Positions 5,638 to 63,980 of a stretch of DNA of 64,000 bases are shown here, in pieces (the first letter of the stretch is position 1; the number at the start of each line of letters is the position of its first letter). The stretch is from Chelydra serpentina. Lineage: Eukaryota > Chordata > Testudines > Chelydridae. The notes beneath the pieces are model-generated. The model was not told the origin of the DNA. It saw nothing but the letters and a program-made list of their open reading frames with translations, and searched no databases. A program made the position numbers and the translations under genes. The stretch spans positions 20,012 to 84,011 of the forward strand of contig JBAIAC010000576.1 in NCBI GenBank assembly GCA_037349315.1, written 5' to 3'.

Positions 5638-5869
5638 TGCAAAAAGCAATACACACATTTGTGGTGATGTTTGCATTCTCTGTGTGCCCCTCTCTCGGTA
5701 CACTCAGCTCTGTTCTGCCTTTTGCCAAAGCTATTGATGATCCTGCTCCCAGTGTGACAATGCTTCCTGCTCCTCCTCTCATTTCTAGCTCCCACTGAAT
5801 CAAAGACATTTGCTTATTTTCTCTATGGAAATTCAGTTCTTCCCTGTACAGCAACTTCATGCCTGAGAA

Positions 5870-9016: not shown

Positions 9017-11941
9017 CTGAAATTAAGAGCATAACCCTGAGCCAGAACATGGTAACCCTTTATTGCATGGTACAGTCAGACTGTTACATCCTTCCTGCAA
9101 AGAATGCCTCACAGGCAGCTCATTACTTGTGTTTGCCTGTTCTAACAGCAAACTCTGTAGGCTACAATATTTCCTACAGGTAGCATCTGATTGCAGACCG
9201 TGAAGTGACTGTTTCAGGGAAATTACCTGACTGACTATCCCAGAAGTATGAGGTATCGAAACCTGCCTGCAACTCCTCTTTGAGGGACTCATTAAGGGAT
9301 TGGTCCCCAGTGGGTTCACCTGGCTGCAGTGGGAAGCCTCTGAGAATCTTCTGGAAAAGATCAGGTGTCTTCCCTGCTCGCTAATCCCCAGTGTTCCCCT
9401 TCCAGACTGATGGATAGATCATGTACAAGAAGACGACTTTGTCCTTATTGGTAAATTTGTCTAACAGCACATCCATTAGTCTGAATCCTCTCGCCCTCCC
9501 CTCTTTCTAGACACATTATTAATTCCAACCCTCACATATATCTCCTGGGCGGGTGATGTTGCTCCTAAGGTTACATGGAGGGGAGCACTTGGCTGCCACA
9601 GCTGCTCATCACTGGGCTGCCTACTCCATAGTTTGTTATCCAGACAAATGGATCCCCTGGGAAGAAGAAGAAAAACGTAGCATGGATTAGTTCTCCAATG
9701 CTGTTACCTTTCTGAGAGCTTCGTCTTCTTCTCCGGTACATATAGAATCCAACGCCTACCACAGCCGTTACTGCCACGCCTACGATGGCAAAAATCCAAG
9801 CGTTGCTGCGGCCAGAGCTCTCCGCCTCAGTCTCGTTCTCCCTCATCAAGGCTGCGTTTGGAGAGGTTAAAAGTAAGCAGTTGAGGGCTCAGGATACAGA
9901 CTGTGATCAGATGCTGGACATATGGGATCATTTCGCAATGGGACTGGAAAGACGTTGAGAACTAGATCTCCTGCCAGTGTATAGTCATTCAGGCCTGGCC
10001 TACACTTCAAATTTAGTCAACGCAGCTTCGGCACGCAGGGGTGTGAAAATGCACAGCCCTGAGCACTGCCGTTACGCCGACCTCGGCCCCGTTGTAGATG
10101 ACGTGAGGCTGACGGAAGAATGAGTCCCTCAACCTGGCTACCGTAGCTCGGGGAGATGGAGCTCCTCCAGCGACAGAAAACCCCCCGCCATCGGCACAGC
10201 CTGCGTCTGCACTAGAGGGTTATTCTGAGCTCCAGCACCCTGGAGGTGCCTCCAGTCCCTGTAGCGTGGACGTGGGCTCAGATAGCAACAGGTGGGGAGT
10301 CTCCCGGGGAAGAGAGGACTCTATCACTCACTAGAATGAGCATGGAGTTCCTGACCCGCATGGGAGAGGGAATGGCTCCGTACGGTGTCAAAGTGTAAAA
10401 ACACCTCTTCTCCCAGCAAGCCAGCCTTGATTCCTGACAGCATCAGCTCAGCCCACCAAAGAGAAAAACGGAGTCCCAGGAGCTCCCTGCATCCTGGTTT
10501 TTCCTTCCAGACACAGCCTGCAAACCCCAAGGTGCTGTTTGCTGTGGGACCGAGGTTAAAGTTCCTGCCACAACCTCCCCCTGACACTTTTTAGACAAGC
10601 CACAGTTTGAGCCGGTGCCCAAATGAAACCCTTCCCTGCCTTGCTGTGTGCTGCAGGACAGCTACTACCTTCCACCCCAGAGGTGGCTGCATGTCTGCCG
10701 TGCTCTGTCTACCCCATGTATCAGGGAGGGTGCACCCCAGCGCTGGCCAAGACTGTTACCTGTAACTCTCTCACAGACACTCAAGGTCTGGTTAAAGGGG
10801 GCGTGGATCAGAGTGCAGCAGAAGGTGCTGTCCTCAGGGCCGGTCACCACCAGGCGGCTCTGCACCTCCAACACTCCCTCACTGCTCCGACGAAGTTCTG
10901 CCGGCTCCGACTGGGTCAGCTGGTTCCCGTTCCCATCGTGCCATGTTATTTCAGCCTTGGGATAGCCCCCGCTGGACTTGCACTGCAGGGTCATCTCGCC
11001 CTCCCCCCAGGAAAGGGCCCTGATCTGCGGGGGTTCGTATGGCGCTGAAAAGCAAGATCTCTGGTTAGCCTGTGTGGACCACTGAGGAGTCAAGAGAGCC
11101 CAGGGCCTCCAACTTGATGGAGCCCAATTCACTGCAGGGCTCTGCAGCAGTATCCTCCTGAGACCTCCGAGCGTTGCCTGTTGCTTGCATCGCATCCAGA
11201 CAGCAAAACGGACCCGCTCACCCCACCCGCTCCTGAGGAGCAGCCAATGGTGCCGTCCTTGCTATTAGGAGTCTTGTGGCCTCGGAGAACGGGTGACGGT
11301 GGCTCTTTCTGCAGAGGTCACGCTCCTCTCACAAATGCAGCCCGGAGCATCCTGCAGACCTAGCTAACCCCCCTCTAGTTTCGCTGTACTCGCTGGGCAG
11401 AGCATGGTCCGTTTACCTGATACATGGAGGATGATGCTCCCAATAACCACATCCTGGCTGTTCACTATGATGCACCTGTATTCCCCGCTGTCCGACGGCC
11501 GCACCTGGGTGAGGTTCAGGGAGGCCACCCCCTCGCTGAGCTCTTGGAGAAAGAGCTTCGTCCGACCCTTGAACTCCACCTCCTGGTCCTCCAGCCTGTC
11601 GGCCCCATCATAGTAGCTGTGCACCACGGAGCCCGCCTCGTCTCGGAAGACGTGCCAGTGGATGCGGAGTCTGTTCAGCACAAAGTCTGAGGACAGCTTG
11701 AATCTGCAGCTGAGGGTGACGTCCTCCCCCACTCTGGAGTGGATGTTTGATTTGTCACTCGGCTCTGGGAGAAGGAGAACGTGGTGTTATAGACTCCACA
11801 CACAGCCGTGGGTTTGGTTTTACTTCCCCGCCGGGAATCGCTCTGTCACATGCCACGGCCCCTTGGCCTCCTGGTTTGTAACTCACGTGATCCTGCAGTG
11901 ACACATCCCAGGAGCACAGGAAACCAGACCAATCGTAGCAT
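8602..11941 (-). CDS. HHLA2-like: B7-family membrane protein, HHLA2 (B7-H7)-like, IgV-IgC-TM with repeated small tail exons
   Basis: Exons on the minus strand, all joined in phase 1: signal peptide 11941-11887 (begins MLRLVWFPVLLG), IgV 11764-11417, IgC 11044-10760, TM 9851-9708, then tail exons 9319-9227 (93 bp) and three of 57 bp (9016-8960, 8836-8780, 8658-8602). Every junction has AG/GT consensus. The IgV has the paired cysteines (TLSCRF, EYRCII) and an HSYY-G-D-LE-Q stretch that I recognise from HHLA2. The IgC has QCKSSGGYPKAEITWHDG, typical of B7/butyrophilin C domains. The TM exon carries a hydrophobic segment followed by RRRRR. HHLA2 is a T/NK-cell co-regulatory ligand (known receptors TMIGD2 and KIR3DL3), but human HHLA2 is V-C-V; this copy is V-C. 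Butyrophilin or another B7 member is the alternative. The terminal exon with the stop was not resolved. A possible one starts after a TTACGCCTCCATAG acceptor near 8040, upstream of a poly(A) signal at 7782-7777. Exon 1 to the last 57-bp exon totals about 365 residues. Confidence 0.82.
9993..10278. mobile_element. hAT-type MITE, probable
   Basis: Begins CTGGCCTACACTTCAAA and ends with an imperfect inverse (GTGGACGTGGGCT). The interior has several GACGTNA-type blocks. This resembles the non-autonomous hAT elements common in turtle DNA. It lies in the intron between the IgC and TM exons of the first HHLA2-like gene. The terminal repeats are degenerate and I did not find a clean target duplication. 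Confidence 0.5.
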
Positions 11942-14789: not shown

Positions 14790-16030
14790 TTAATCATACA
14801 ATCATAGAATCATAGGAATGGAAGGGACCTCACGAGGTCATCTAGTCCAGCCCCCTGCACTCAGGGCAGGACTAAGTATTGTCTAGACCATCCCTGACAG
14901 GTGTGTGTCCAAACTGCTCTTAAAAATCCCCAATGACGGAGATTCCAGAACCTCCCTAGGCAATTTATTCCAGTGCTTAACCACCCTGACAGTTAGGAAG
15001 TTTTTCCTAATGTCCCAACTAAACCGCCCTTGCTGCAATTTAAGCCCATTGCTTCTTGTCCTGTCCTCAGAGATTAAGAAAAACAATTCTTCTTCCTCCT
15101 CCTAGTAACAACCATTTACATGCTTGAAAACTGTTATGTCCCCTCTCAGTCTTCTCTTCTCCAGACTAAACAAACCCAGTGTTTTCAATCTTCCCTCATA
15201 GGTCATGTTTTCTAGACCTTTCATCATTTTTGTCGCTCTTCTCTGGACTTTCTCCAATTTGTCCACATCTTTCCTGAAATGTAGAGCCCAGAACTGGACA
15301 CAATACTCCAGTTGAGGCCTAATCAGCGCAGCGTAGAGCGGAAGAATTACTTCTTGTGACTTGCTTACAACACTCCTGCCAGTACAATCCAGAATGATGT
15401 TCGCATTTTTTGCAACAGCGTTACACTGTTGACTCATATTTAGCTTGTGATCCACTATGACCCCCAGATCCTTTTCCGCAGTACTCCTTCCTAGGCCGTC
15501 ATTTCCCATTGTGTGTGTGTGTGCAACTGACTGTTCCTTCCTAAGTGGAGTACTTTGCATTTGTCCTTATTGAATTTCATCCTATTTACTTCAGACCATT
15601 TCTCCAGTTTGTCCAGATCATTTTGAATTTTAATCCTATCCTCCAAAGCACTCGCAACCCCTCCCAGCTTGACATCATCCGCAAACGTTATAAGTGTGCT
15701 CTCTATGCCATTATCTAAATCATTGATGAAGATATTGAACAGAACCAGACCCAGAACTGACCCCTGCGGGACCCCACTCGTTATGCCCTTCCAGCTTGAC
15801 TGTGAATCACTGATAACTACTTTATGGGAATGATTTTCCCACCAGTTATGCACCCACCTTATTGTAGCTCCATCTAGGTTGCATTTCCCTACTTTGTTTA
15901 TGAGAAGGTCATGAGAGACAGTATCAAAAGCCTTACTAAAGTCAAGATATATCACATCTACCGCTTCCCCCTATCCACAAGGCTTGTTGCTCTGTCAAAG
16001 AAAGCTATCAGGTTGGTTTGACAGGATTTG
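14790..16030 (-). mobile_element. CR1 LINE, reverse-transcriptase C-terminal part and 3' end
   Basis: On the minus strand the reading frames carry CR1 RT motifs: YLDFSKAFDTVSH, SGVPQGSVLG and the FADD catalytic motif (as ITFADDVKLGG), then the LEYCVQFW and KVQRRATK region and the HWNKLPREV segment. It ends with the CR1 3' terminus (GATTCTATGATTG-type). Frames are broken in several places, so it is inactive. It is the downstream part of a longer element whose upstream pieces lie at 16.2-17.0 and 18.9-19.5 kb. Confidence 0.9.
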
Positions 16031-22373: not shown

Positions 22374-25300
22374 ATGCAACCCCTCCCGTGTTTCTCCATC
22401 CTCCTGCTCGCCGTCTCAGTCAGCTCCCAGGAGAGCGGTAAGTAGGAGACGTTTATTGGAAGGCCAGGACTTGGTCAGCATTTGTATGCCGAATGTGTAT
22501 ATTTATTCCAGGCACTGCAGTAAAGGTGCCAATACAAGACACAGGATTTGTTCGCTGCTGCTTTCAGTGGCTGTGAAAAGAACCATATCAACTGAGCATT
22601 TCTTTCCCGCACAGAGATGGAAAGATGTGTAGTATTTAATCATTGAACAAGAAGTATTAAAGTTTATAAGTTAACTATAAAAAAAACCCTCAGACTATCC
22701 ACTCCATCTCCTTGCGCACACAGGTTGTTCCCTGATGTGCCTTTTCTTACCTATGGGTGACAGCGTAAAGGGCGTATGCGAAGTTTTACTGTCTCTCCGC
22801 TGACGTAGCCAATAAACAGCCCTGAGAATGAACTAGAGAATGACAGCACCACAGTCTGTGTCCCCTTGGAAGATGCTGCTGATTTCTCATCTTCTGGCCA
22901 CTCCAAACTCGCGCTCCTTAGATGTTTCTTCTGTCTGTCATGTTGTGAGCCGCGCTCAGTTCGTCTTTCCCCCTGTTGAAAAGATGGAGGAATGAGTTTC
23001 CATTAGGTTTGGTGTGTTACAAGGAGGACTCAGGGACGGACAGACCAAACAGCAGCAGCAGGGAAACCTCTAAAATCTTAAGAGAAACTTTCTGTGAGAA
23101 GAGTTTTGAGTGACAGGAGCAGCAATTGGGGAAGGCTGTAAAGACTCATCCGTAAAGAGACTGAAGGCTGTCGATAAACAATGGCTGAATCCAGTCCCGC
23201 CACAGTGCTTAGAGATCAGCTAGACCACTCGCTATTCTCTGCGTCTGAGCATTTATAGTGTAATGGTAAATCGTACATACCTCGGAACTCATTCTGGCCC
23301 AGTGGACAAATGGAGAGTAGGTAGTATAGACGTATCAGCACATTTGAGAACATCGTACATTTCCGGAACAGCTTCCTATTGCCACGTTTATTTCTTCATG
23401 GCATTTTTCTGGTTCTTTGTTCAGATTCTTGTTAATAAAAAGGCAGGTTTTAGTAGGTCTCGCAAGAATTTCCACCTCAGCACTCAGTGAGGGCTGCCTT
23501 CCTGCCCCTGAGCTGTTGATATGCCCACTCTTTGCAATACATATGCTTTCAGTGGGACTTGTGCACCTGTATGCACTACGGTCTTTGGAAAGTCTCCCCC
23601 AGCACTAGAAATAAGAAAATAAACTTTGAAAAAGGCTCTTTGGTGTTAAATAGCCACGATCCCAGAATCATCAGCATGCAAAGGCAAGTGGAGCGCCCCT
23701 GATTCTCCGTCCCTTGGAGGCTGTAAATCGCTCCTAGAGCAGATCTCCTAGGGAGATGTCCAAACTTGATTTAAAAATTGCCAGTGATGGAGAATGCACC
23801 ATGACCCGGGGGAAATAGTTCCAGTAGTTAATTAAGTACGTCTTATTTCCAGTCTGAGTTTGCCTAGTGTCAACTTCCAGTCATTGCATCTTGTCCTCTC
23901 GCCATTGGATCTTGGATTGGACTTTGGGGGTTTGGGAGGCTGGGTCTTTGTGCTATTTGCATGTATGTTCTGTACACTGGAAGTTCCTAGTCCCTCTGAG
24001 CCAGCCAGTGCAGACTCTGTTTATTTCACTACTGTGAGACTGGCCATGGCGCTAGCTCCAAACGTGTCAGAGAATCTGTGGCTTGGTTCGTATTTCTCAT
24101 GCTGCTGCCCTTTACTGCAATGTAAATTCTTTTTAAAGTGCACTTTGTGATGGACTTCCCTGGGGTGCCACCTGGAACTGGGGTACCTCTGGCACACCCA
24201 TCTGGGCCCCTCTCACACTGTACGGTTGTGACAAGCTGCAGCCAGCCCCTGGTCCTGCACTCACACAAACCTTTACCTAGGCAGGGACACACCCAGCTGC
24301 AGTTGCATGGAGGTTTCTTGTTATGCTTATTAGAAGCACATGGGATCTTTTCCAGGGAAAAAGGCAATATGCCGCATTTATTGAAAATACAACCGTTAGC
24401 ATATGCATTCAGTTACACAACACACACAAGTCCTGCGATGGTCTTTATAGTTACCAGTCTGTCGTAGCTTGAGTCAATCTAATGGCCAGTTAGATTGAGC
24501 ACGAGTGAGAAGCTGGGCTCTGTCGGTCGCGATCTAATGCTCCGAGGCTTTGCAGGACTGAACCCAGAGTTCCATGGCAGAGCGCCCTGTTCTTATAGTC
24601 CTTTTTCTCCATTGAAGTCTATGGAGTTTGCTGTGTCATTTATGACTGGTTACTCCTTAATTGGTGTGAAGTATCAGAGGGGTAGCCGTGTGAGTCTGGA
24701 GCTGTAGAAGTGACAAAGGGTCCTGTGGCACCTTATAGACTAACAGACGTATTGGAGCATAAGCTTTCGTGGGTGAATCCCCACTTCCTCAGTGTTATCT
24801 TTTGATGTTAACACTCCAAAGCACCTCCAGGGTCATCCTGTCCTGGTTTCAATTTAACCAATTATCTTGTCTTTAGGGGCGCCAGCCTCCACCTCAGGGT
24901 CATCAATCTGCCCTTCCTTCATTATGGATGCGCATTGATGGTTCTCTGCTGTCCTTAAGTCTCTTCACTCTTCCTTCCTTGACCATCTGACTTTAACAAT
25001 GGCCTTTGCACCTTATCTTTTCCTGATGCATACACTCCTCATTCACACAGTCTCTTACAGAGACCTTCAAAGGTAACAAACAGCAACGTTTTATGTTGAG
25101 CAAAAAAGACATTGTAAACTAAACCTTACTGAATCTTGTGACCAAAACAGTTCACATTGGGGCCCGGGCCTTTAACATGCCTCTAATGTCATTAACATAG
25201 ACACACAATACAAGATCCCGTCTCTTACTTACTAAACCTTAAAACAAAAAAATGTATATATTTAACTAAAAGGCCTAATTTGTAATGCATATAGAAAACA

Positions 25301-28300
25301 AGACCCCATAGTAAACATTATAACTTATCCTAAAACAGAGGGTGACTATAATCAGCCATAAGCACTGTTCCCTCTAAGCTGTGCGCGTGTGCGCGCGCAC
25401 ACAGATCCTAAACCCTGCGCACACGGTGAAACACCGCACGCACAAAAATTTGCACAGAAGCACAACAATTTGCATAGAAGAAATTTGTTGCGCACACGGC
25501 CTGTCAAAAATTAGAGGGAACATTGGCCATAAGGACTGTTCTAGTTTATTCCTGCCTTAACATCAGTACGGACGCTGGCAGTCTGTCAGATGAGTTTCTC
25601 CCAATGTCCCAGAGGGTCATTCCTTTCTGCGATTCAAAAAGGGTGGCTGTCAGGATGATCAAATCATACATTAATACATACACCATTATTATAACCATCC
25701 TTTATAACCTCGAATGCAAATATAAAATCCTACTCCTACATTCTCCTCAGCCACTCATGAACTAACAATAGAGAGATTCCAGCCAGCTCACAGCCTAGGA
25801 CCCCACTTCCCCTTTTTATAGCTTCTTCCATGTGGCGGGAAAGAACTTCATTGTCCCAAACAAAGCCCCCAGCACAGTTTGTGGGAAAAATACAAGCACC
25901 AAAATGGAGTCCAATATCACATGATCTAGTCACGTGTCCTTGCCTGCTTTGATGAGTCATGGCAGCCATTACCTGTATTTTGGATGAAGTGTCCACAGGA
26001 AAGCTTAGCAGGTGGGGATACATTTTCCCATAGCCCATTGTCTTGGGTGATGGGCCATTCAGCTTGGGTCTCCCCTTCACAATGTGCTGGCTAGACGGGA
26101 TGGGAACTACCTTGTGGGTGTTACCCAGGAGCAAACACATTTGAAGTACAGATCCATAGTCAATACTCATAACTCCAGATTCAAAAATGATACACACACA
26201 CAAATAGGATAATCCTAGTCAGCCAACCACAACTTTCCCACTCACACCTCACACGGCATGTTTTGTCCAAGCTGCATCACAATTCTATTATAACCATATC
26301 CTGATGATAGTCCATGAGGAATATGGGGTGTAGTGTCACACGCTCCTCCAGCAGAGAGAGGGCATCGCAGGGGCCAGGCACTGTCCGGATACGATGATTG
26401 CTAATAAATGACCAGCAAGATTATCCCACAGCAAGACAGGCTCTATTCTTCAGCTAGATACTGGGCTGATGAAATGCAACCAGGGGACAGCATGGCTGTC
26501 AGGCCTATCAGAACCCTGGGGTCTGAGATCTTGGGGTCAGACACGTAGAGAAGAGAGCTGACATCCTCCTGGGAAATTCCCTTGCCCAGCTGGAAGCTGC
26601 CGCAGTGGTGAGAAATACAGGATTTTAGGATGGGAGGAAGCGTGTCCCATAGACCATCCAGTGACTTCCGGCCTGAACTGCTGCTTCTCAATGGATCTGT
26701 TCAGTGCTGATGGTGGCGTATGTTGCAGGGCAGGAGGGGGTGTATTCTCTCTTTCTCTCCTCCCTGCAGGCGGGTGTCTGAAGCGGATCGGTGGGTTCTC
26801 CGTGCTGCAGCAGCCCCCGTGGGCGGTGAAGGAAGCCGGAGCCTCTGTAGAGATGAACTGCACCCTGGCGCTGCCCCCGGGACACCCCAGACCCAGCAGC
26901 GTCCTCGTCACCTGGCACAGGGGGCTCAGAGGGGACGGGCTGACGGGCACGGGGAAGCTCTCCGAGGTGGAGGAGCTGCGGGGGCGGGTGGAGACGGCCT
27001 GGCTGGAGAACGTCTCTGCCAGCACCCTGCACATCCGCAGCCTGCAGCACAACGACTCGGCCCTCTACCTGTGCCTCTTCGTCGTCTTCCCCTCGGCCCA
27101 GCCCTGCGTCCTCGAGGGCAACGGGACCCGCCTGACGGTGACAGGTACGGCGGGGTCAGCACCGCACAGCAGGATCTGCCGGGGAGAGGGGATTGTAGTA
27201 AGATGAGGCCCAGTATGAGGCCTAAGGCCTGAGCTAAAGTAATGGTCAAGACTTTGCTAACATCAAGCAAAGTTAAGCTGTGAGCCAGAGGCAGGCCCTG
27301 CTCACAGGAGCTGGCAAGGAAAGGGCTGATGTTACACAAACATATTCTGTTGCACAAATATGTATTGGATACCAGAGATATAAACAAATGGCACCAGAAC
27401 ATTCTTATACCATCCACATAGATAACAAGGACAGGGGCAAAAGGGTAATATGATGGAGAGAGTTGTTTTGTCCGAACCAACATGTACAAGGTGAGAGGCG
27501 GCACCTCACCACGTAGAGGGGTTGCACCTTGTTACGTAGAAGGGGTTGTACCTTGTTACGTAGCGGGGTTGCACCTCAACACGTCAGGAGTGTTATGTAA
27601 CTTGTTTGTACCTGTGTATAAGAATGCAGCCCTGGGGCGGTGTCTCTGTCCGGCCTAGGGGACAGTGGAAAGTCCCGCCACTGACTGAGCTGTGTCCATT
27701 GTCAGGGAGCACAAATTCGTAGTATGCCCGGTAGAGTCTAACAGGAACTATCACTGTGCTTCGTTTGACAGTAAACCTGGCCGGGTGCCTTCGTACCTTA
27801 TCAGAGTCTGTGGTCTTTGGGGGGTCTCTCGGGGTCTGCTGTGTCAGCTATCTGCGCAGAGCTGGGGCAGCACACAGAGGGAACACGCATGCAGCCGACT
27901 GAGATCAACATTGAACAGAGCAGAGCAGCACACCGGTAGCCGTCTGACAACAGGGATTAAGTAGCTAATGCAGCCAGCTGGTGGCCTGATACTGCAAGGG
28001 GTTTAAGCCGCCATTGGCAGGGCCCGGAGGAGCTGGGTACACTAGGAACGGCTCTTTCAGATCAAACCCCACCATTATTACTGAAATGTAGGTACGTCGG
28101 GGAGCCCCCTCTGTGGGCACTCTGAAATCAGGTTAGCGTTCATCAGCAAAGCATGAACTACAGCAAAACCCATCTCAGGGGCTCTCAGACGGGGTTACGG
28201 GCATCGCACCAAAGGGTCGCATCCATGTAAGGAAGTTAATTGGTTCAATCGATTGTGCCCAGGGGCCTCGTCAATAACACGTTTAATCCCAGGCTGCCCC

Positions 28301-29865
28301 CAGGCCCGTCCCTACGGTCAAAGCAGGTGCGAAAATTAAACACGTCTAAGTGCTTTGCTGAATTGGCGCCTTACTGACGGGGCAGGTTTTCAAACCCTGT
28401 GTTCCTAGTGCACATTGGGCCATTTAAACATCTGGCCTTGATTGGCAGGCATTATCTCGTGACCTCACCACTCCTGTGACCCCACCCACTCCCAGGAGAG
28501 GAAGTGGCTAGGGCGCTAGCCAAGCACACTGGAGACCCCAATTCAATCCCCAGCTCTGCCACAGACTGCCCGTGTGACTAGGATCAAGTCACTTCACCTC
28601 CCCGGGCCTGAGGTGTCCAGCTGTCCAAGGGGGATAATAGCACCGCCCTGCTTTTCAGGGGGCCCTGCGGATAAACACAGGAAAGTTATGGGGTGCTCAG
28701 ATGTAATGGGGCGGGGGCAGGCTCCACTAAGCGAGCTGACAGCCGAGAGCAAGAAGCAACAACGGCTCTGTGGGATGGTCACTCATGGCACTTGGAGGTT
28801 GTTGTCCTGTGCTTGTGACAGTCTATCCTGTTGCCATAGACATGTCTGACGTCATAAGACACGCTCAGAGACGGGAGGGACCGAAAGCCCAGGTCAAACA
28901 TGCAGGGCAACAAACAGCAAAGAAGCCAGAAACACAAGGGAAGGGGGAATGTTTTAAACAAGGGTTGGTCAGAAAAACCTGTCAAAGCTGTTTGTGAGGG
29001 AAAATTGGGTTCTCAGCTAAATGACATTTTTTTTAAAAGCGTTTTCCACAGAAAATATCCACAATGTTGGATTTCTGGACAAAAGTGGGGTTTTCAATGC
29101 AAAGTTGAATTGTTTTCTGTTCTCATGGAAATCGTCTGTGGGAAGCAGCACACCCATTTGCCAACCTGCTCTGGTTTGAAGCTTTAGCGAGAAGGGCCAT
29201 GAGGGGGTCGCAGGAGTCGCTAGCTGCAATTGAAGGTCACTTGGCCCAGAACGAGCGTAGTTAGTTGAGTAGCTCTTGGAGATGGAGAACACGGCATATT
29301 GGCAAGTGTTGTGTGGTGTGTTATGTACCTCGGGGAAGTGCTGTCTCTGAGTCTGAGCCATCTATACCTCGTGCCACAGAGAAAGCAGGGTCACGTGAGC
29401 AATGTCTGGCCGTCAGCTGCTCTTCCCCCAAAAGAGGACAACACCACCAAATGCTGAGCCTGGGTTTCCCCTTTCCCCTTGTAGGTTTCTCTGCTCGGGG
29501 GAACACGACCCAGATCAGCTCGGAGCACAGGGAGCTGCCTGAGCATCAGTGGACCATCCGGCTGCTGGCGCTGGGAGCGGGGATCGTTCTCACGGCTGCC
29601 GTTGGGCTTTGCCTGCACAGGAGGAGGGGAGGTGAGAGGCAGGAACTAAATCCATAATGCGGCTACCGTTATGAAGCAGCCACCCTTAGTGTTCCTGGTC
29701 AGGGCAGCTCCCTGCGCTTCCATTCCAGTTACACCTCCGGGGGCAGGTGTTCTATGATCAGTGTAACTCCAGACAGGTAGCGGTGTGGCCTGGGGCTATT
29801 TATAGCCATAAGCTGCCATATTTCTGAGCATGAATTCTCACTGCGTTACAGGGACCCCCAAATGA
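22374..29865 (+). CDS. NCR3-like: NKp30 (NCR3)-like activating-type receptor
   Basis: Four exons, all phase 1: signal peptide 22374-22437 (MQPLPCFSILLLAVSVSS), IgV 26770-27144, stalk plus TM 29485-29631, and a last exon 29852-29865 giving G-T-P-K then stop. The total is 199 residues, almost the length of human NKp30 (about 201). The IgV has Cys in MNCTL and YLCLF, the ELRGR and LHIR blocks and a J-like GNGTRLTV end, as in NCR3. There are four Asn sequons, plus an extra Cys pair (near the N-terminus and in the CDR3-like loop) that might form a second disulfide. The TM exon reads HQWTIRLLALGAGIVLTAAV with Arg at the outer end, then HRRR. In NKp30 a TM Arg pairs with CD3-zeta/FcR-gamma, so an activating role is inferred. 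Intron 1 is 4.3 kb and intron 2 holds a solo LTR. Poly(A) signal at 30401. Confidence 0.88.
23690..23905 (-). mobile_element. Degenerate CR1 3' region
   Basis: Reverse reading resembles the CR1 segment upstream of the 3' end (ATTCTCCATCACTGGCAATTT, CCCCCGGGTCATGG, TTGACACTAGGCAAACTCAG blocks). It lies in intron 1 of the activating NKp30-like gene. Confidence 0.65.
24660..24800 (+). repeat. Interspersed SINE-like repeat (copy 1)
   Basis: The block GTAGCCGTGTGAGTCTGGAG ... GTGGCACCTTATAGACTAAC ... GCATAAGCTTTCGTGGGTGA recurs, with variation, at 31765-32000. It is a widespread reptile interspersed repeat; I cannot name its subfamily from sequence alone. Confidence 0.6.
25363..25525. mobile_element. 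hAT MITE (163 bp) with 8-bp target duplication
   Basis: Terminal inverted repeats CACTGTTCCCTCTAA and CAATGTTCCCTCTAA (reverse of the right end; 14 of 15 match). They are flanked by GCCATAAG at 25355-25362 and 25526-25533. An 8-bp duplication and CAnTG ends are the hAT signature. The interior has GCGCACAC-rich inverted segments. It lies in intron 1 of the activating NKp30-like gene. Confidence 0.85.
27194..27952 (+). mobile_element. Solo LTR (759 bp) in intron 2 of the activating NKp30-like gene
   Basis: Begins TGTAGTAAGATGAGG and ends CGTCTGACAACA, flanked by the 5-bp duplication GGGAT (27189-27193 and 27953-27957). It has a TATA-like CTGTGTATAAGAATG, an AGTAAACCTGG poly(A)-like site and a U5-like end. 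It sits 49 bp after the IgV exon. The inhibitory paralogue lacks it at the same place (GGGGATTAGATACC), which fixes the insertion point. A fragment of the same family is at 16035-16190. Confidence 0.88.
28500..28720 (+). mobile_element. MIR/CORE-type SINE
   Basis: Contains the MIR-like sequence CCCAGCTCTGCCACAGACTG, TGTGACTAGGATCAAGTCAC, TTCACCTCCCCGGGCC and GGGGATAATAGCACCGCCCT. It is an ancient tRNA-derived SINE in intron 2 of the activating NKp30-like gene. Confidence 0.75.
28975..29130. repeat. AT-rich interspersed repeat with internal inverted segments
   Basis: Strings of GAAAATT, TTTTCCA and CAAAATG-like words that recur at 30840-31190 and 32220-32640. These are probably copies of one interspersed repeat that I cannot classify. 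Confidence 0.4.
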
Positions 29866-30400
29866 AGCTGGAGAAACCATTTCACAGCCCAGGACTCAGG
29901 AGAACAACCGGAGCAAACTCCTGCCCAGCGGCCAGCTTGGAACCTGCCTGGGTGGCAGCAGATCGTGCGCGGGAATCGGAACATCTTCCAGCTCAGCTCC
30001 TCCCCCTCGCCTTCATGCCAGCAGCAAAGAGCTCTCCTTTGCAAACCCCTCTTGTCACGTGCTTCTGACTGCCCCAGAATCCCTTTCCGGGGGCAGGGAG
30101 AGGCTATGTGACTATCCTGCTGCCCCTTGCAGCTCGGCTGCCTTCGGCTAGGGAGGATGGGGAGAAGCCTCACCTTTTCGTTCTTGCTCCTCTGCCGACA
30201 GTCAGTGCAGCACTCACCTCGCGGATCTCCTCTGTGCCCTCGGCAGCCTTCGCCATTCACATCAGGGCCAGCTCCTTCCATGTAGCGCTGCTTCCGCTTC
30301 TGCTGCGTGGGGAGACATCACAGCCTCAGCAGGGAACGGCTCTCGGATGGCTCTGAATTTTATATGGATTTGTCCAGATTTTATTTTTTGTAAATTGTAT

Positions 30401-30406
30401 AATAAA
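30401..30406 (+). terminator. Poly(A) signal of the activating NKp30-like gene
   Basis: AATAAA about 540 bp downstream of the stop codon at 29865, following a T-rich stretch. It gives a 3' UTR of normal length and is the first good signal downstream. Confidence 0.65.
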
Positions 30407-30839
30407 GTCTGTATTTTTAACAGTGGGCATCAAACAAATACATTTGATTCAGTGCCATGCCTGGCTGTTCTAATTCTTATGAAAGCCACCAATAAAAACA
30501 TGCAAGGTAAGGAAAGTACTGCATAGTTCAAGATAAAAAGTCCTGCTAATCTGGAGTTAAAGCTGAGACCAGGTACTAGCCTGTCTTAGTAATTGAAGTA
30601 TAAACAAATCTTGCCGGGATGTTGTAATTGTCCCCAAACCAAGCAATATAAACTCAGGAAAATCAGAGTTAAAGTTACATTTAAAAGAAATCAAAAATAT
30701 GTTCAGGTATGTCAGTGCCCAGCTAAGGGACCCAAAGAACCGTAACCGGGCCCAGCAGTGACACGCAATCACTACACGATTATTATTAAAGTATTTTTCA
30801 GAAGAGGGAATTTCCATCCAGTGGCTATTTCAACATTTG

Positions 30840-31195
30840 TTTTCATCCCAAATCGGGATAAAAAGTCGAACTATCAGAAAGTGTCATGAAACAAACATCT
30901 CTGAACAATTGTGATTTGGAAATGTTGAAATGAAACGTTTGGTTCTGAACTGGGTTATTCAAACTAGGCCCTTTTGTTTGGAACGGACATTTCGAGTGAC
31001 TGGGACATTTGAAGCTGAAATGTCCGTGTGAAATAAAACGTTCTAAATCAACATTTTGAAATCAAACATTACAGGCAGTTTCTTAGTGAAATGGCACTTG
31101 AGAAAATCGAAACGGTCTGTTGAAATTGACATTTCCCATGAAAAAATTAAATTTTGACAAAACCAGATTTTCCAGTAGGAAAAATCTTCAGTGAA
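30840..31195. repeat. AT-rich interspersed repeat with inverted segments (second copy)
   Basis: Many short words such as GAAATGTTGAAATGAAAC and TTTGACAAAACCAGATTTTC occur in both orientations. Similar sequence is at 28975-29130 and 32220-32640. It lies in the space between the two tail-to-tail NKp30-like genes. Confidence 0.45.
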
Positions 31196-31764
31196 ATATT
31201 TTCTTCTGGCTCTACTGGGGCCCCAGGTTAGAGTAAGCGGATTTTTAAATATATTTCATTTATTTTACATACACCCCACCCCGGTGAGGTCCCTACCGAG
31301 CAGAGCTAGGTCAGTATCCGGGCGTATAGCATTCATGCAGATAGACACTAACCAAACCTTAAACGCAGATCCCACATCAGTAATGGGGTCTGTGTGTAGA
31401 TTTCAGCCAAAGAGCAGAAAGCCAGTTATGCCCCATCCCTGCTCCAGTAACTCAGCCATGGTGCTAATCTGCTGTGGCAATGGGAGGGGGATAATGAATT
31501 ACAGGACTCTGATCAGATCTGCTTGGCTCTAGGGTCTCTGCAGTGCCCTGCCTATTCCACCCCTCTCCCTCTAGGCCGGGAATCATGGTTCATTTCAGCA
31601 GAGATTCGTCTGTGCTAGAACACAGGGAGGGGATGCGCTGGCGGCACTCGGGGGCAGACAAAGCTGATGAGTTTCAGGAGATGGCTGAGTCACGTACTTA
31701 CCTTCCAATAGGATGGCAGAGCAAATATGGACTTGATAAGCAGGAAGAAGAAAATAAGAAAGAA

Positions 31765-32000
31765 AGAAATACCTGTGGCACCTTAGAGACTAACAAATTT
31801 ATTTCAGCATCAGCTTTCGTGGGGTAGAACCCACTTCATCGGATGCATGGAATGGAACATACAGTGGACAGATATTTATACAGTCAGAGAAACATGATAA
31901 GGTGGAAGTGCCTATACCAACCTTAAGAGGCTAATTAATTGAGAGGAACTTTCTTATTTTCTTTTTGCTGACACAGACTACCACGGCTACTACATTGATA
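31765..32000 (+). repeat. Interspersed SINE-like repeat (copy 2)
   Basis: The block GTGGCACCTTAGAGACTAAC ... CATCAGCTTTCGTGGGGTAG ... CACTTCATCGGATGCATGGA ends with ACACAGACTACCACGGCTAC. It is related to 24660-24800. Confidence 0.6.
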
Positions 32001-32219
32001 AGCAGGGTCTCTCGAACCAGCCACGCTATGAATAGATAGATCAGCCAGGCCTTGTGCTGGGAAACGTTGGGTTTATTCACAATTACACACGAATGACAAG
32101 GTTTCATCAAAACAGGAAGAAAACCATAAGGAACTCAAACTAGGAGCAAAGGGAAGGTTTTTACAGGCCAGGGGAACTGCTAGAGCAGTTCAGGAAATGG
32201 AATTTTTCAGCCCACAGGA

Positions 32220-32640
32220 CACTCGGTTGGAACAGAAAAAATCTAACTGTCGAAACGTTGTGTGGAACGAAAAGTCCCCCAAAATTTCAAATCAGAAATG
32301 TTGACATGAAAAATGTCAGCGCTTTTGACAGAAACTAAACATAAATTGTCACTTCGAAATGATATTTCAAAGCTAAGGAACAATTTTTGTTTTATTTTTT
32401 GACATAACTTTTCATTTTGCTTTTTTAAAACCAAAAGTAAACGAGATTTTATGTCAAAACAAAAAGTGTCACTTTGTTCTGAAATGTTGATTCATAAATG
32501 ACAATTTGCATTTTGACATTTCTTGCTGGAAAACTGACATTTTTTCAGCAGAATCAAGATTTTCCCAAGAAAATTTTCAATTTAGACACAACTGTATTTT
32601 TTGGCAGGACAATTTTCCTCATGTAAAATTTCGGTCCTCT
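32220..32640. repeat. AT-rich interspersed repeat with inverted segments (third copy)
   Basis: Same word composition as 30840-31195 (GAAATGTTGACATGAAAAAT, TTTTGACATAACTTTTCATT). It lies downstream of the inhibitory receptor's stop and may be in its 3' UTR or beyond; minus-strand AATAAA-like words occur in it. Confidence 0.4.
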
Positions 32641-33113
32641 CAGGTGATTCGCGTTACGAATAGGTCTCCATGGGATGTGGCAGATCCTTCACCACCTGGC
32701 GTCTAAACCATGGTTGGAGGTGCTCTTTTCAAAGCAGTAAGTGACTTACGTGCATAGACCTGTGCTCCTAAATCACTTAGGTGCAGCCCCACTTGTGCAG
32801 GGTGGGAAGAGTAATTCCTTCCGATGCCGGACTCATGGGGTGAGATTCTCTGGCCTGGGCTAGGCAGGAGGTCAGACTGCCTGGGAACAATGGGCCCCAC
32901 TGGCCTGAACATCTACGAACAAACGGGATTTTGCAACTTAGTTACACCAAGTTTTCCTGCCCCGTGATGGTCATCAAATGTACACGGAGCAGATGCCAAA
33001 GATACAGACAAGCACCCAGCGTAGGAATTGGGCACTAAGATGACAGTAACTACACAGCTATCCCATCTTCCATTTGCTAAAAGCAAGGAAGACAGGGCTC
33101 GGCTGTAGCTGCC

Positions 33114-36100
33114 CTAAGGAAATCCCCCTTGGCTGTCTGCTCTGCCCTTTCGAACCGCAGCGTATTCCGTGTCGGAGGGAGACGTTGCCGGGGAACGTGC
33201 TCTTGTCGTTCTGCTGTGTGTCGGCGGCTGGATGCTGCGATCGATGTATGTGATCTCTTCTGCCGTTATTCGGGAGTTTACCCTCGTCGCTCTGCTCTGA
33301 GTCCGTGGCTGGATACTCAGCTCTGCATACGTGATCTCTTCTCCCTCACTCGGAGACTCCTGCAGCGCGAGGAAATTAGGCTTGGAAAGGCCGAAGCTAC
33401 GCCACCGTGGGATACGGTTGTGCGGCAATACCCATGTGCTGGGCACTACCGCACTGCACTCCTAACAGGACAGCGGGTGTATTGCTGACAAGGACAGCAA
33501 CAAACGTAGCTGAATTCGTGGACTCAACTCACCGTCATCAGCCGAAGGCTGTGACCAGCGGGGTCGCCGGCCCCAGCAAGAGGTGACGTGTGCAGCGCTC
33601 CGGAAGCAAGCCCTGTTTGTGGACAAACGGAAAGGGACCTTGGGCGAAGGAGAAAGAAGCTCCAAAGCCAGGCCGCTCTGCCTGGCCAGACGCAGGTAAC
33701 TGCTTGTCCTGTTACCTTGTCTGGCGTGCTAGGAGCAGCAGCTGTTCTGGAGGTTCACCCAACAATTCAAAAATTAAAGTCTGTTCAAAGCCGAGGCTTA
33801 TCAAGGGGCTGAGCAAGACTCAGGCAAGTGTGAAGGTCTTGTCCCTTAAAGCCAGTTGGGGTTAGCTGAGCAGTTTCAAGGCTCGGACACTATTTTTCAC
33901 ACTCTGTCAGTTCTTAAATGGCTTTTAAAACCCCCAGACTCCCAATTCTCCAGGCTTGCGTCTGGTTTTGTCTAGACGACAGACAGGCGCTTTTTGGGTG
34001 AACAGTGACTTGCCCCTTGACATTTGTGCCGATGCGGTTAACTCCTTTACAGTCACGTGAGCTGATCGTGCGGTAGCCTAGAAATCCGCCCCCTCCCCCG
34101 CTCGTCAGCTTTGACCCGCTAAATTGAGGTCAAAGGCGATAACGTGCATCGATCCAGAGAAAAGGTTCTGGTTCGGTCGGGGTTAGCGAACATGTCTTAC
34201 CTCGGCCTGGCTTTTAGCCTGCACACTCTCTGGGGCAGGGCCTGTCTACGGGTCTATCTGCAGCAGTCTGGAGCCCAGGAGAGCAAGCCCCCAGCGCTCT
34301 AAGAAGAGCTGTGCAGACAGAGCTCTGCACTTGTGGCTCGGGCTGGATCTCAGCCTCTGACCCCAGCTCCCCTCCTTAGGTGCTACTGCAATGACACAAT
34401 TCAGTAATTCCCCAGCTCACCCGCGTTACTATTACCATGTCTGCAGCCGGTGACAGCAAATCACATCAGCAAACTGGATTTCTGAAAGCACCTTTTTCCT
34501 CATCTAGCCAAGGCAGCTTTCGGCTCCCCAGGTCGCAGAGCTAGAGACTGTCATTTCAGCTCCTCACCTGTCCTCCTGAGCACACACAGCAGGAAAGCGC
34601 CCACGAGAATCCCCAGGGCTCCCAGACCCAGGGAAAGAACCTGCCAGTTGGCCAGCGCGCTGTGAGGTGGGCCGGGCCGGGCCGGGCTTCCCGGAGTGGA
34701 GAAACCTGAGAGAGAAACGGGAGGTGCCCACTCAGTGTTAACCTCCCGGAAAAGAAACGAATGACCCTTGAAACGTGTGCAATCGCTCCTGCTGATTTTA
34801 AACTCACTTTACCCTGCTTTGTCTGTCTCCTTATAGCCGGGGAACACAGCGAGGGGCCACCCCGACAGCTGCGCCTCACCAAGGGCAGAGCAAAGCGAGG
34901 GGGAGCTGAGAACAAAGCGTTCTCGATCGAGGGGATCCGGCTGTGGGACACACTTCCAGAGGAGATCAGCCGGAGCCAGACACCTTGAGCAGCTGCTGTG
35001 AAACCTTCCTCTTTGAAAAGGTCTCTCCAATGACGCTCACACCACTGCCACCCCCTTCCACCCTCCAGCGCTACCAAGCCGCCAGCCCCGAGACAGACCA
35101 ATCGCAAAACAAACCAAGACAAGAAAATGAATAAACGGTAAAGAAAAGCCCCAAACCTTCCCCCAAGCAAAGCTTTCCCTCGGATGGGCAGAAGTGCCCG
35201 AGACTTCAGCCGCCCGCTGCGGACGTGGGCCCAAAGCCACCAAGGCGTTTAGGCTCCTAACTTCCAGTGAAATCAAAGGAAGTGAGGTTCCAAGGACCTT
35301 TGCGGATCTGGGCCGTAGCTACTGCTATTGATTTGACATGGCAGATGCCCAGCTCCTGTGGTAGACAGACCGCCAGGGCTAAGGATGGCTTGGCTGTGCC
35401 CTTCCATTACAGTCCCTCCTTTCCAGTGGTTTGTCACCTTCTCTGGCTTTTCCCTTTCAGCTGAAACCTCCCTGGGGATGAATTTAATTTTGAAGGTTCT
35501 GGCAAAAACAAGCAGGAGGTTTTGGGGAGAGCGGCATTTCTCTCTCTGGCAATTGTCTTGTGCCCAGCTCTCCTCTCCTTCTGACACACGGAACCAAGAA
35601 CGGTCCCTGTCCGTGTCTTTGGCGTCGTGCCTTTCTGTGGCCCGGGGCGTGCAGGAGGCTGGACGGGCCCAGCTGGCCCGAACGTGGACCCGTGCGCAGG
35701 CAGGACAGAGCGAGTCCGGCTGCAGCATGAAGGTCTCTGTTGACTAGTGACCCAGCTCGGGGTATCTAATCCCCTCTCCCCGGCAGATCCTGCTGTGCGG
35801 TGCTGACCCCGCCGTACCTGTCACCGTCAGGCGGGTCCCGTTGCCCTCGAGGACGCAGGGCTGGGCCGAGGGGAAGACGACGAAGAGGCACAGGTAGAGG
35901 GCCGAGTCGTTGTGCTGCAGGCTGCGGATGTGCAGGGTGCTGGCAGAGACGTTCTCCAGCCAGGCCGTCTCCACCCGCCCCCGCAGCTCCTCCACCTCGG
36001 AGAGCTTCCCCGTGCCCGCCAGCCCGTCCCCTCTGAGCCCCCTGTGCCAGGTGACGAGGACGCTGCTGGGTCTGGGGTGTCCCGGGGGCAGCGCCAGGGT

Positions 36101-36542
36101 GCAGTTCATCTCTACAGAGGCTCCGGCTTCCTTCACCGCCCACGGGGGCTGCTGCAGCACGGAGAACCCACCGATCCGCTTCAGACACCTGCCTGCAGGG
36201 AGGAGAAGGGAACCTCTAGTTAAGTACTTGTGTGCTCTGGCCCTTCAGCCTGGAGAGCGCCTGGTGCCTCCCTGCAGCCGGGGCAGGGTCTCGCACGCAC
36301 GCACGCAGGCACACAATTCCACACTCACTCACACTCACTGACACACACACACGCTGCCCTACCATTAACGAAGCCTTGGCTGCTGCAGACATGCCGTGCG
36401 TGGAGAATGCCCAGGGTCACGTTAGCAGTAACCGGGCTCACTGACCGGTGACTTGGAGCGAACGCCCCATTGACTTACCCCTGTCCGGGGAGCTGCCCGG
36501 GAGCAGGAGCTGCAGGAGGGACACACACACTAGGAAACGCAT
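33114..36542 (-). CDS. NCR3-like: NKp30 (NCR3)-like inhibitory-type receptor with ITIM/ITSM tail
   Basis: Minus-strand exons: signal peptide 36542-36479 (MRFLVCVSLLQLLLPGSS), IgV 36192-35818, stalk plus TM 34705-34568, tail exon 33612-33533 (80 bp), last exon 33359-33114 with stop. Phases run 1, 1, 1, 0 and sum to 300 codons. The IgV exon is almost identical to that of the plus-strand NKp30-like gene. The stalk is Pro-rich and the TM segment (LANWQVLSLGLGALGILVGA) has no charged residue, unlike the activating copy. The tail carries EEITYAEL (ITIM), a duplicated EEITYIDR (Arg at +3, degenerate) and DTEYAAV (fits the ITSM pattern TxYxxV). Such motifs recruit SHP-1/SHP-2 or SAP-type adaptors, so an inhibitory role is inferred. 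The 80-bp exon is my reconstruction from a CCACAAACAG acceptor and a GACG/GTGAGT donor; its phase fits both neighbours. Other tail exons could exist. Confidence 0.85.
34790..35000 (+). mobile_element. Non-LTR retrotransposon 3' coding remnant
   Basis: A frame reading KAFSIEGIRLWDTLPEEISR resembles the conserved C-terminal end of LINE ORF2 proteins (pattern FS..PRLWN.LP). It is a short remnant on the opposite strand, in the intron between the IgV and TM exons of the inhibitory NKp30-like gene. Confidence 0.5.
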
Positions 36543-45130: not shown

Positions 45131-45157
45131 TCCTTGCCGTTTGACCCCGGTGCCCAC

Positions 45158-45569
45158 CTGTAAAGCCCGTCAGCAGCTCGACCCCCCATGGATCCTGCCC
45201 CCCTGGCACTGCCCCAGCCCCCCAGGTGGCCGCCCGGTTCTCCGTGTAGATCACCACGTAGACCACTCCCGGCCGGTGCTCCCCGCGGTGGCTCCCGTTC
45301 AGGCACGTGGGGCAGGCCCCGTACCGGTCGATCAGGCCCCACTCGCTGAACCTGGCCAGGTCTCGGCGCGTCACCCGGCAGCAGTAGACGGCTTCTTTGA
45401 CGAAGGAGGCCTTCCTCTGAGGCCAGTCGGCCGACTTGGGCCCGGTGCTCTGGAGGTAGGCGGACACCGTTTCAGTGTAGCCGATGTAGAAATACTTCGC
45501 TTGGCTCCAGGAGACCTGCTGGATCGTCTCCTCCAGCTGGTCACACGACAGCTCCAAAACCGGCACCAT
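45158..45569 (-). CDS. Unrecognised protein, first coding exon (partial)
   Basis: About 137 codons from an ATG at 45569. The exon probably begins at 45641 (acceptor CTCTCCCGTGCAG, with 72 bp of 5' UTR) and ends at a GGCTTTACAG/GTGGGC donor at 45158. The peptide has non-repetitive, globular-looking composition (begins MVPVLELSCDQLEETIQQ; contains YFYIGYTETVSAYL and YGACPTCLNG) and is unlike the low-complexity frames around it, which supports real coding sequence. Cys-X2-Cys occurs once, which is too little to call a zinc site. I do not recognise the family. Downstream exons were not found; the C-rich minisatellite follows at once. The duplicated promoter-like blocks at 47.2-49.1 kb on the same strand could supply non-coding first exons. 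No function is proposed. Confidence 0.5.
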
Positions 45570-52808: not shown

Positions 52809-55800
52809 TCACTCACCTTCGGCGGGGATGCGCGGCAGCCCCCAGGAGATCAGCACCATGCACACGAGGGTCACGAGCGCCAGCGTCACGAGAGCCGTCG
52901 GCCACCCGGGGACTCGCTGCTCCAACGCCCGCAGCCGGGACTCCAGCGCTGCCGTGGGGGAGAGAGGGGAGGGGGTGACACGGGCTGTGGCTGAACCCAG
53001 AGCCAGGGGGCCCCCAGCCCACCCAGGAGCCGGACGGCCTGCAGACCCCGGCCCCAGCCGCGCGGACGTGCCCCTCTCTCTGGATCCAGCCTCCAGAGCC
53101 CAGACGCCCAGGTGATGGGCACGGCCCCCCGAGCTCTGCCGCTCGGACGGCTCTTGAGGGGGTGTGACGTTATTGACATAATCTGGAACTGTAGAGATTG
53201 TTGCAACCACTGTTCTATATCTGCAGCAAATATTGTACAAAGGTTGTCGTGTGAGGTGTCTACGGGAAGGTTGTGGTTGGCTGGTTGTGATTATGCTGCC
53301 TGTATGTGTGTATCAGTTTTGGAGTTGAAGTTATGAATATTGGCTGTACACTGTCTGTATTTCAAACTTGTGCTGTGCTTCTGGGACCCCAGACAAGTTG
53401 GTGTCAGCTCTGCCCAGCCTGCTGGATGGCCCATTAAGGACCATCAGCGATACAAGTGACCCATTGAGAGACGGCAGACACGCCTTGTGTCTCAGCAAGA
53501 CATGCAGGGACCTGCCCATGTGACTCCAGACTCCATTTTGCTGTAATTTTCCACAGTAAGGACAAAGAGGTGTCTTTACACCTGGGAGAGACTATAAAAG
53601 GCTGATGCCTCATCTCCATCTTGTCTTCAATCCTGCTTCTTACCTCTGGAGGGACTTTGCTACAAACGTAAGCTCTGAACAAAGGACTGAAGGACCCATC
53701 CCAGCTGGGGATGTTCCAGAGACTTGATTTGAACCTGCAGCTTCTTCCATCTCTGCTACTAGCCTGAACCAAGAACTTTGCCGTTACTGTATGGAATTGA
53801 TTCCTTTTAACCAATTCTAGCTCTCACCTAGACCTTTTTCCTTTTATGAATAAACCTTTAGATTTTAGATTCTAAAGGATTGGCAACAGCATGATTTGTG
53901 GGTAAGATCTGATTTGTATATTGACCTGGGTCTGGGGCTTGGTCATTTGGGATCGAGAGAACCTTTTTCCTTTTACTGGGGCATTGGTTTTCATAACCAT
54001 TTGTCCCCATAACGAGTGGCACTGGCGGTGAGACTGGGAAACTGGAGTGTCTAGGGGAATTGCTTGTGTGACTTGTGGTTAGCCAGTGGGGTAAAACCAA
54101 AGTCTCCTCTGTCTGGCTGGTTTGGTGCCTTAGAGGTGGAAAAACCCCAGTCTCAGGCTGTAACTGCCCTGCTTGAAGCAATTTGTCCTTTATTGACACC
54201 CTCAGTTGGGTCCCTCCAGAACCAGCATGGTTACAGGGGGTGTCCCCAGTGGCAGCCCCGGGTGGCCACCCACCGAGCAGTGGAAGGGGGCGCGGGGGAA
54301 GGGGGCTCTTGCCCCGTAGCGCTGACACCCGCCCACGTCCGCCCCCGGGGATTGTGGGTAGCGTCCCGGCCCCGCTCACCTGTGAGGGTCTCGCAGACGC
54401 TCATGTTCTGTTGCAGGGGCGGGTGGCTCAGGGAGCAGCAGACGGACCCCCCGGGGCGGGGCGTCAGCCACAGGTCGCTCCGCACCTCCAAGGTCCCCTG
54501 GCTGCTCCTCTGCGGCTCCGCCGGCTCGGCCTGGCTCAGCCAGGTCCCGTCCCCGTCGTGCCACGTGATCTCGGGCTCGGGGTAACCCCCCGCGGAGCGG
54601 CACTCCAGGGCCACCTGCCCCCCAGCCCGGGAGAGCATGGCGAGCTGAGGGGGCTCGTATGGGGCTGTGAAAGGAGAGAAGGGGGGGTGAGGCCTGCTGC
54701 CCCCTAACCACAGACAGGGCTGAGGCTGGGTGTATTGCCAGGCTCGGCCCTCGACAGCCCCCCTGCCCCGGCGCCCCCCACTCATGACATCTTACACCAT
54801 GAGACACGGGGGTCCGACCCGTCCTTGGGACAGGGGCTTGGAACGAGCTCCCGCCCGTCCCGCTCCCCAGGGAGCCGGCTCACCGCCCGGGGGACAGGAC
54901 ACATGGCAGCCGGGAGGAAACGCTGGGACGATCAGGCTGAATGCGACACAGTCGCTGGGGCGGCGCGTTTCGATCTCTGAGCCGGGGCGCTTTCCCGTCC
55001 ATGTCAGCGGGGGCCGCGTCTCTCCCCAGCTCTCTGGGGAGCGTCGCTTCCCACTGCCCAAGCCGGGCGTTGATCCGTTGGCGGGGTCAGAGAAGAGCCC
55101 CGGGGAGGAGGAACGGATCAGAAACCTGCCCTCGAGCGAGAGACTCCAGGAGCTCCGGCCCCTTCGCTCTACAGACCCCCCACGGGCAGCGTGGCGCCAG
55201 ACAGGCCCGGCGCGCCGCGGTTACCGGCCACGCGCAGGATGAGGTCCATGCTGTCAGCATCCCGGCCCTCCAGCAGGAAGCAGCGGTAGGTGCCGCTGTC
55301 CGAGGGGCGCACGCCGGCCAGGCTCAGGGCCACCACCCCCTGGCGGATCCCCTGCAGGAGAAGCTGCGTCCGGCCCCTGAACGCCTCGGCCTGGTCTGCC
55401 AGCCGGTCGGCCCCCGCATAGTAGCTGTGCACCACGGAGCCCCCCGCCGGCCCCCCCAGGAGGTGCCAGTACACGTGCAGGTGACGCGGGTCGGGCTCCG
55501 GGAGCGCTCGGGCCCTGCACTCCAGCGTGACGTCCTGGCCAGCCCGGGCCCAGAGCTGGGGGCCGTCGCTCGCCTGAGGGGCCGTGTCTGCTGGTGAGAC
55601 AAAGACGGGGGAGTTACCGGGTATCCAAGTACCTGGGGGACCCTCCTGGACAACCTCCCGCACACAACGCAGCTGTGTCACGGCACCAGCCCCAGCCCCT
55701 CCCCGGAGCTCAGGAGCCGCACACGTGGGTAACAGCCTACTGCTGCCGCCAGCGGGCGAAGGACACATGCGAGGATACATACACTCAGAGGTGGTGAGGT

Positions 55801-63689: not shown

Positions 63690-63830
63690 AGAAGGTGACA
63701 GGGCAGGGGGGATCCCGGGTTGAAAGTGCCATTTCCGCTCTGAACGAGGCTCCTTTCAGCCCAGCAGAAACGATTCGAGCTCCCAAAGCAGCCGAGTGCA
63801 GCAGGCGTCATTCCCGGTTCTCCCTTCCCC

Positions 63831-63980
63831 ATCTCCTGCGCAGGCAAAGGACAACGGCAGCCGTGAGAACGATTCCTGCTCCCAGGGCCGGCAGCCGGAT
63901 GGTCCAGTGATGTGGGGGCAGCTCGGGCTGGGTTGTGTTCGCCTGCAGACCCGGCCAGGTCGTGTTCTGAGCAGAGGGAC
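63831..63980 (-). CDS. NCR3-like: Third NKp30-like gene, stalk and TM exon only (continues past window)
   Basis: Acceptor CTCTCTCAG then a phase-1 exon start at 63980. It encodes a stalk with two Asn sequons and PHHWTIRLPALGAGIVLTAAV, then LRRRW, closely matching the activating receptor's TM exon including the TM Arg. Signal peptide and IgV exons would lie beyond 64000. At the position of the paralogue's donor (GGGGAG/GTGAGA) this copy has TGGGGAAGGGAGAA, so the GT is gone. Read-through gives R-E-N-R-E then a TGA stop (63816-63814). The gene is therefore either a read-through short-tail form or a decaying copy. Confidence 0.7.

Follow-up and report, generated by a model that had tools for sequence, protein, structure and literature searches.

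The window analysed here, a 64,000-nucleotide stretch from Chelydra serpentina, contains two adjacent, convergent receptor genes, both inside 22374-36542. The question that they raise is whether they encode the activating and inhibitory members of one receptor pair and, if so, to which family that pair belongs. The original prediction assigned both genes to NKp30 (NCR3). The exons of the activating-type gene (ACT) are as follows.

22374..22437, plus strand: ACT exon 1, leader, 64 bp; GT donor, ends in phase 1
26770..27144, plus strand: ACT exon 2, IgV, 375 bp; AG/GT sites, ends in phase 1; V-set domain at 8.8e-09 (Pfam)
29485..29631, plus strand: ACT exon 3, stalk and transmembrane (TM) segment with Arg (WTIRLLALG), 147 bp; AG/GT sites, ends in phase 1
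29852..29865, plus strand: candidate ACT exon 4 (GTPK and a stop), splice-possible; unused in the homologous models compared

The exon and splice-site check bore out the predicted 64-bp signal exon, 375-bp IgV exon and stalk-TM exon, all in phase 1, as well as the TM Arg, which is the fourth residue counting from the Trp at the start of the TM segment. The ACT donor site is intact (GTGAGA), and the IgV domain has a J-like end, GNGTRLTV, the counterpart of which in human NKp30 is GNGTRLVV. The predicted four-residue last exon is possible by splicing, but in the two homologous models of ACT length the TM exon is read through, to end in ..GGERQELNP in Mauremys P0001 and in ..GGERQEQNP in Dermochelys P0002. 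An open reading frame for such a read-through is present in the window, with a stop at 29655-29657. A signalling motif is absent from both possible ends (exon 4 or read-through), each of which is a tentative 3' end of ACT.

The inhibitory-type gene (INH) lies on the opposite strand.

36479..36542, minus strand: INH exon 1, leader, 64 bp; agrees with ACT exon 1 at 42/64 positions
35818..36192, minus strand: INH exon 2, IgV, 375 bp; agrees with ACT exon 2 at 373/375 positions
34568..34705, minus strand: INH exon 3, stalk and TM segment without Arg, 138 bp; from splice sites and TM comparison
33533..33612, minus strand: INH exon 4, cytoplasmic, 80 bp, phase 1 to 0; residues shared with Chelydra P0005
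33114..33359, minus strand: INH exon 5, tail with ITYAEL (ITIM), TEYAAV (ITSM) and stop, 246 bp; from motif scan and Chelydra P0005

Here too the predicted ITIM/ITSM tail and the lack of the ACT charge in the TM segment were found, the former as ITYAEL and TEYAAV and the latter as the absence of Arg from exon 3. INH, like ACT, splices cleanly, and the description of the exons as all in phase 1 holds for the first three only, because exon 4 runs from phase 1 to 0. The Chelydra serpentina model P0005 differs from the window INH at 3 of 277 aligned residues and has the same tail, which is also found in protein models from Chrysemys, Dermochelys, Mauremys, Natator and Emydura. When the tail was shuffled, an ITIM and an ITSM occurred together in 19 of 20,000 sequences, as against 1,776 of 20,000 for an ITIM alone. 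A degenerate ITYIDR sits between the two motifs.

The INH tail also contains an internal duplication (EEITYAELSIQP.. and EEITYIDRSIQP.., within 33114-33359, minus strand), the second copy of which fits an ITIM in none of the seven INH sequences; in Emydura the tyrosine is gone from this copy. The Emydura INH further has a Glu directly behind the Trp with which the TM segment starts.

A search with the ACT protein gave 12 homologues and a profile search 18 (among the best 7,997 candidates scored), and in both cases all were from turtles. For species other than that of the window, the sequences compared are automatic protein models. The TM Arg is present in all five ACT sequences and, at the same place, in none of the seven INH sequences; conversely, ITIM and ITSM are present together in 7/7 INH and 0/5 ACT. 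In a tree of the stalk/TM region (54 columns), ACT and INH are set apart at 100/100. The same type of pair is present in protein models of Mauremys, Dermochelys and Natator. The Platysternon ACT model P0004 continues into the antisense of INH exons 4 and 3 (76% and 86%), and ACT and INH therefore converge in that genus too. INH is also present in Emydura, a pleurodire.

A feature of the pair that the original prediction did not point out is the high identity of the IgV exons, which differ at 2 of 375 bp; both mismatches are nonsynonymous and none is synonymous. Because ACT and INH are convergent, these exons form inverted repeats, the arms of which extend slightly beyond the exons.

26756..27194, plus strand: 439-bp block common with INH, 2 mismatches, first inverted-repeat arm
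35768..36206, minus strand: 439-bp block common with ACT, second inverted-repeat arm; spacer of 8,573 bp

The identity begins 14 bp 5' of the IgV exon and ends 50 bp 3' of it, and beyond these points falls at once to chance level. The leader regions share 70% over 88 bp surrounding the leader exons, and the stalk/TM exons are diverged, with only short traces of likeness. ACT and INH are old paralogues in which the IgV exon has lately been overwritten, gene conversion being the best fit.

The features characteristic of paired receptors, namely like ectodomains, opposed ends, close linkage and a concerted binding exon, were all found in the sequence. It is likely that the two genes belong to a family of turtle receptors of the VJ type with a single IgV domain and form an activating/inhibitory pair in which the IgV domains are kept alike by conversion. 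The paired-receptor part of the original prediction finds support in the sequence, in the near-identical IgV domains, the opposed ends, the adjacent convergent genes and the repetition of this arrangement in turtles. ACT would use its TM Arg to pair with an ITAM adaptor such as FcR-gamma or CD3-zeta, and INH would recruit SHP-1/SHP-2 through the ITIM and ITSM. The TM Arg of NKp30 pairs with CD3-zeta/FcR-gamma (PMC6514059, in the part available). Both turtle receptors would bind one common ligand, so a pathogen using INH would also meet ACT, and conversion would stop a pathogen adapted to INH from evading ACT.

A further member of the family, as well as other genes, is present in the window.

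730-5703, minus strand: URGCP-type GTPase, 1,657-aa open frame (8.2e-194)
10665-11786, minus strand: B7/butyrophilin-type gene with V and C2-type domains; best solved relative B7-H3 (CD276), then butyrophilins
15491-15970, minus strand: reverse transcriptase open reading frame (RVT_1, 8.1e-22)
45156-45569, minus strand: open reading frame with 80% identity to Platysternon P0012 across 138 aa; in that Platysternon model it is joined by splicing to a family IgV exon
54231-55837, minus strand: B7/butyrophilin-type gene with V and C2-type domains; best solved relative B7-H3 (CD276), then butyrophilins
63808..63980, minus strand: stalk/TM exon with TM Arg of a third family member, the IgV of which lies beyond the window; matches the ACT TM exon at 83% across 114 bp

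The exon at 63808-63980 is related to Chelonia P0011, Chrysemys P0015 and Emydura P0017 (named CD8-beta-like). A divergent paralogue from Terrapene triunguis, P0016, has a TM core without Arg and gave the top score of the family with a profile of mammalian NCR3 (26.8 bits). For the open reading frame at 45156-45569, no Pfam family and no PDB match were found. The two B7-like genes flank the ACT/INH pair, and by proximity alone the proteins that they encode are candidate ligands of it.

If the Arg of ACT, which lies near the outer membrane edge, had no partner, ACT would be a non-signalling decoy that only mimics the binding domain of INH. The position of the Arg close to the opening Trp would suit this reading, but the residue is retained in all five ACT sequences, in a recombinant Chelonia model (described below) and in the third paralogues P0011, P0015 and P0017. 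Moreover, FcR-gamma-coupled receptors have a TM Arg placed much like that of ACT. For turtles, CEACAM1-like decoys with a single IgV domain and read-through of the TM exon have been proposed (PMC13278318, available portion), and a decoy role of ACT is nonetheless unlikely.

The assignment to NKp30 fared less well than the pairing. ACT has the NKp30-type layout of a single IgV domain, a TM Arg and a short tail, and INH, with its ITIM and ITSM, does not. The exon layout does not diagnose NCR3, because a 64-bp leader exon, a single IgV exon and phase 1 are widespread among IgSF genes. In a profile built from 33 of 120 listed mammalian NCR3 proteins, the window receptor scored 20.7 bits and 17 turtle family sequences 13.8-26.8 bits, below PDB chains of amphioxus IgVJ-C2 (34.4), CTLA-4 (33.0) and TCR alpha (31.9). 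In the opposite direction, the turtle profile gave 37.1 bits for the best of the 120 listed mammalian NCR3 proteins and 24.7 for the human ectodomain, as compared with 45.7 down to 31.5 bits for the 60 best PDB chains (antibodies and TCRs). Other V-set families thus outscored the turtle receptor with the NCR3 profile, and the best of them outscored NCR3 with the turtle profile; the turtle IgV is no nearer to NCR3, as represented by mammalian NCR3 only, than to these families. No protein named NCR3 occurred among the matches of the turtle profile (7,997 candidates scored). Among the matches listed in a comparison of IgV folds were TCR, antibody, VNAR and CTLA-4 chains, with TCR, antibody and VNAR about equal. 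The MHC class III neighbours of NCR3 include AIF1, LST1 and TNF, none of which was found among 13 window sequences scanned with Pfam.

It could be argued that the locus is the turtle NCR3, with an ITIM/ITSM tail acquired by one of two copies after duplication of NKp30. The J-like GNGTRLTV end of ACT together with its layout, the pairwise identity of ~30% between the turtle family and mammalian NCR3, and the 37.1-bit match would fit such an origin, but the higher scores of other families and the lack of any protein named NCR3 among the profile matches make it quite unlikely. In addition, the available part of a koala study lists NCR3 from automatic annotation for alligator, turtle and python (PMC4608214), and therefore a separate turtle NCR3 gene may exist. 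The NKp30 label is not supported by these sequence comparisons; a deep relation between the turtle pair and NCR3 is possible.

The reading of ACT and INH as a pair with a converted binding exon was examined further across the four turtles with both genes in hand. Within a species, the ACT and INH IgV domains, compared over 117 residues, are identical in Natator, differ at 1 residue each in the window and in Mauremys, and differ at 4 in Dermochelys. Between genera, domains of the same type differ at 5-14 (ACT) and 8-17 (INH) of 117 residues, a range of 5-17 that leaves aside Chelydra INH versus the window (1) and the Chelonia recombinant versus Natator (2). The contrast is unequally wide, because Mauremys INH and Platysternon ACT, of different type and genus, differ by 4 residues. 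In the IgV tree, a single ACT clade and a single INH clade were rejected, with p-AU of 5.5e-10 and 1.6e-6, respectively (the identical Natator rows being left free in the constraints). The tree recovered three of the four species pairs (Mauremys at 94/90, Dermochelys at 96/96 and Natator as identical sequences). The window pair was not recovered, because one residue ties the window INH to the Chelydra INH, which it joins at 87/82. For the other turtles, we infer conversion from protein models, which carry no synonymous sites.

The common block in the window is only 439 bp long, as might be expected also from a single copying of the IgV exon in each lineage with no continuing exchange. This is very unlikely, since the within-species likeness of four genera would require several separate copying events, in practice the same as conversion. 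Still less probable is an assembly artefact, in which the IgV copies were made alike, or one of them was created, by a collapse or misjoin at the repeat. High-identity inverted repeats are hard to assemble, and the Chelonia recombinant could be such a misjoin, but the copies in the window have distinct flanks and 2 differences, and the same pattern is present in independent assemblies. A local assembly error could inflate the IgV identity of 99.5%. Finally, although reptile CEACAMs show the same evolutionary pattern (PMC13278318, in the part available), there is next to no chance that the pair are turtle CEACAM1-like genes (single IgV, ITIM/ITSM, converted N exons), as judged by scores of no more than 5.0 bits over 17 family sequences against the CEACAM1 N domain (human CEACAM1 only) and by the intact GTGAGA donor of ACT, which is mutated in those CEACAM genes.

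The converted pair has counterparts elsewhere. Like ACT and INH, Siglec-11 and Siglec-16 of primates are inhibitory and activating partners with conversion of the ligand-binding exon in all primates studied, and conversion keeps their ligand preference alike (PMC5701461, in the portion available). Unlike the turtle pair, with one VJ-type IgV domain and convergent genes, they are primate sialic-acid lectins. CEACAMs of Xenopus, reptiles and mammals share with the pair a conversion limited to the N exon, opposite orientation and an ITIM/ITSM partner (PMC5112662 and the preprint PMC13278318, each as available in part). In these sources intrachromosomal conversion is tied to opposite gene orientation and, in PMC5112662, is argued to keep the activating copy matched against pathogens. 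The activating CEACAM partners carry ITAM-type tails, whereas ACT has a TM Arg instead. Turtle single-IgV CEACAM1-like genes have N exons that are 96.2-99.2% alike and, unlike the convergent ACT and INH, lie in the same orientation as CEACAM1 (PMC13278318, same portion). NITRs of bony fish, likened here by description alone, resemble the pair in having a V domain that ends in a J or J-like sequence and in occurring both as ITIM forms and as activating forms with a positive TM charge, and GNGTRLTV of ACT fits the NITR-type J motif FGXGTXLX(V/L) (PMC2442602, available text). They differ in their large families, a frequent second I domain and highly divergent V domains. The turtle pair is best read as a paired-receptor system of its own with a converted binding exon, and not as NKp30. 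In the MHC class III region of Xenopus, Ohta et al. reportedly described in 2006 V-type IgSF genes, some with and some without an ITIM.

Both membrane/tail ends of the pair lie between the inverted IgV exons, 8.6 kb apart. A crossover at these repeats would invert the interval and swap the ACT and INH ends, leaving the binding domain unchanged. After the inversion, the leader and promoter of INH would drive an activating receptor and those of ACT an inhibitory one. The Chelonia mydas model P0014 (LOC122466140) combines an INH-type leader and the common IgV with the stalk/TM and 3' flank of ACT. Its leader matches Natator INH at 82/92 aa and Natator ACT at 22/37, and its stalk/TM and 3' flank match Natator ACT at 83/86 aa and Natator INH at 41/153. 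Both Natator models are unswapped, and the reciprocal junction, with an ACT leader and an INH end, was not seen among the models compared. P0014 may stem from a real inversion or from misassembly at the repeat, either of which would produce this model. In mammals, inversions between CEACAM clusters of opposite orientation are known; the available part of that account describes no polarity swap within one pair (PMC2832619). The idea that the locus is a genetic switch of receptor polarity, with inversion alleles segregating through crossover at the IgV repeats, is tentative and must be considered doubtful. If it were true, a single crossover could reverse whether a given promoter drives an activating or an inhibitory signal.

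The protein models compared bear names such as uncharacterized, unnamed, Ig-like or CD8-beta-like, or plainly wrong ones, and an NKp30 label would mislead. A turtle family of paired receptors is well supported at the level of sequence. Turtles would gain a compact activating/inhibitory receptor pair, the inhibitory form of which is found in cryptodires and in a pleurodire, and in which homogenisation is limited to the binding exon. The pattern known from Siglecs and CEACAMs would reappear in a receptor with no detectable sequence kinship to CEACAM1, and therefore the ideas on the shaping of paired receptors by pathogens would become testable across turtles.
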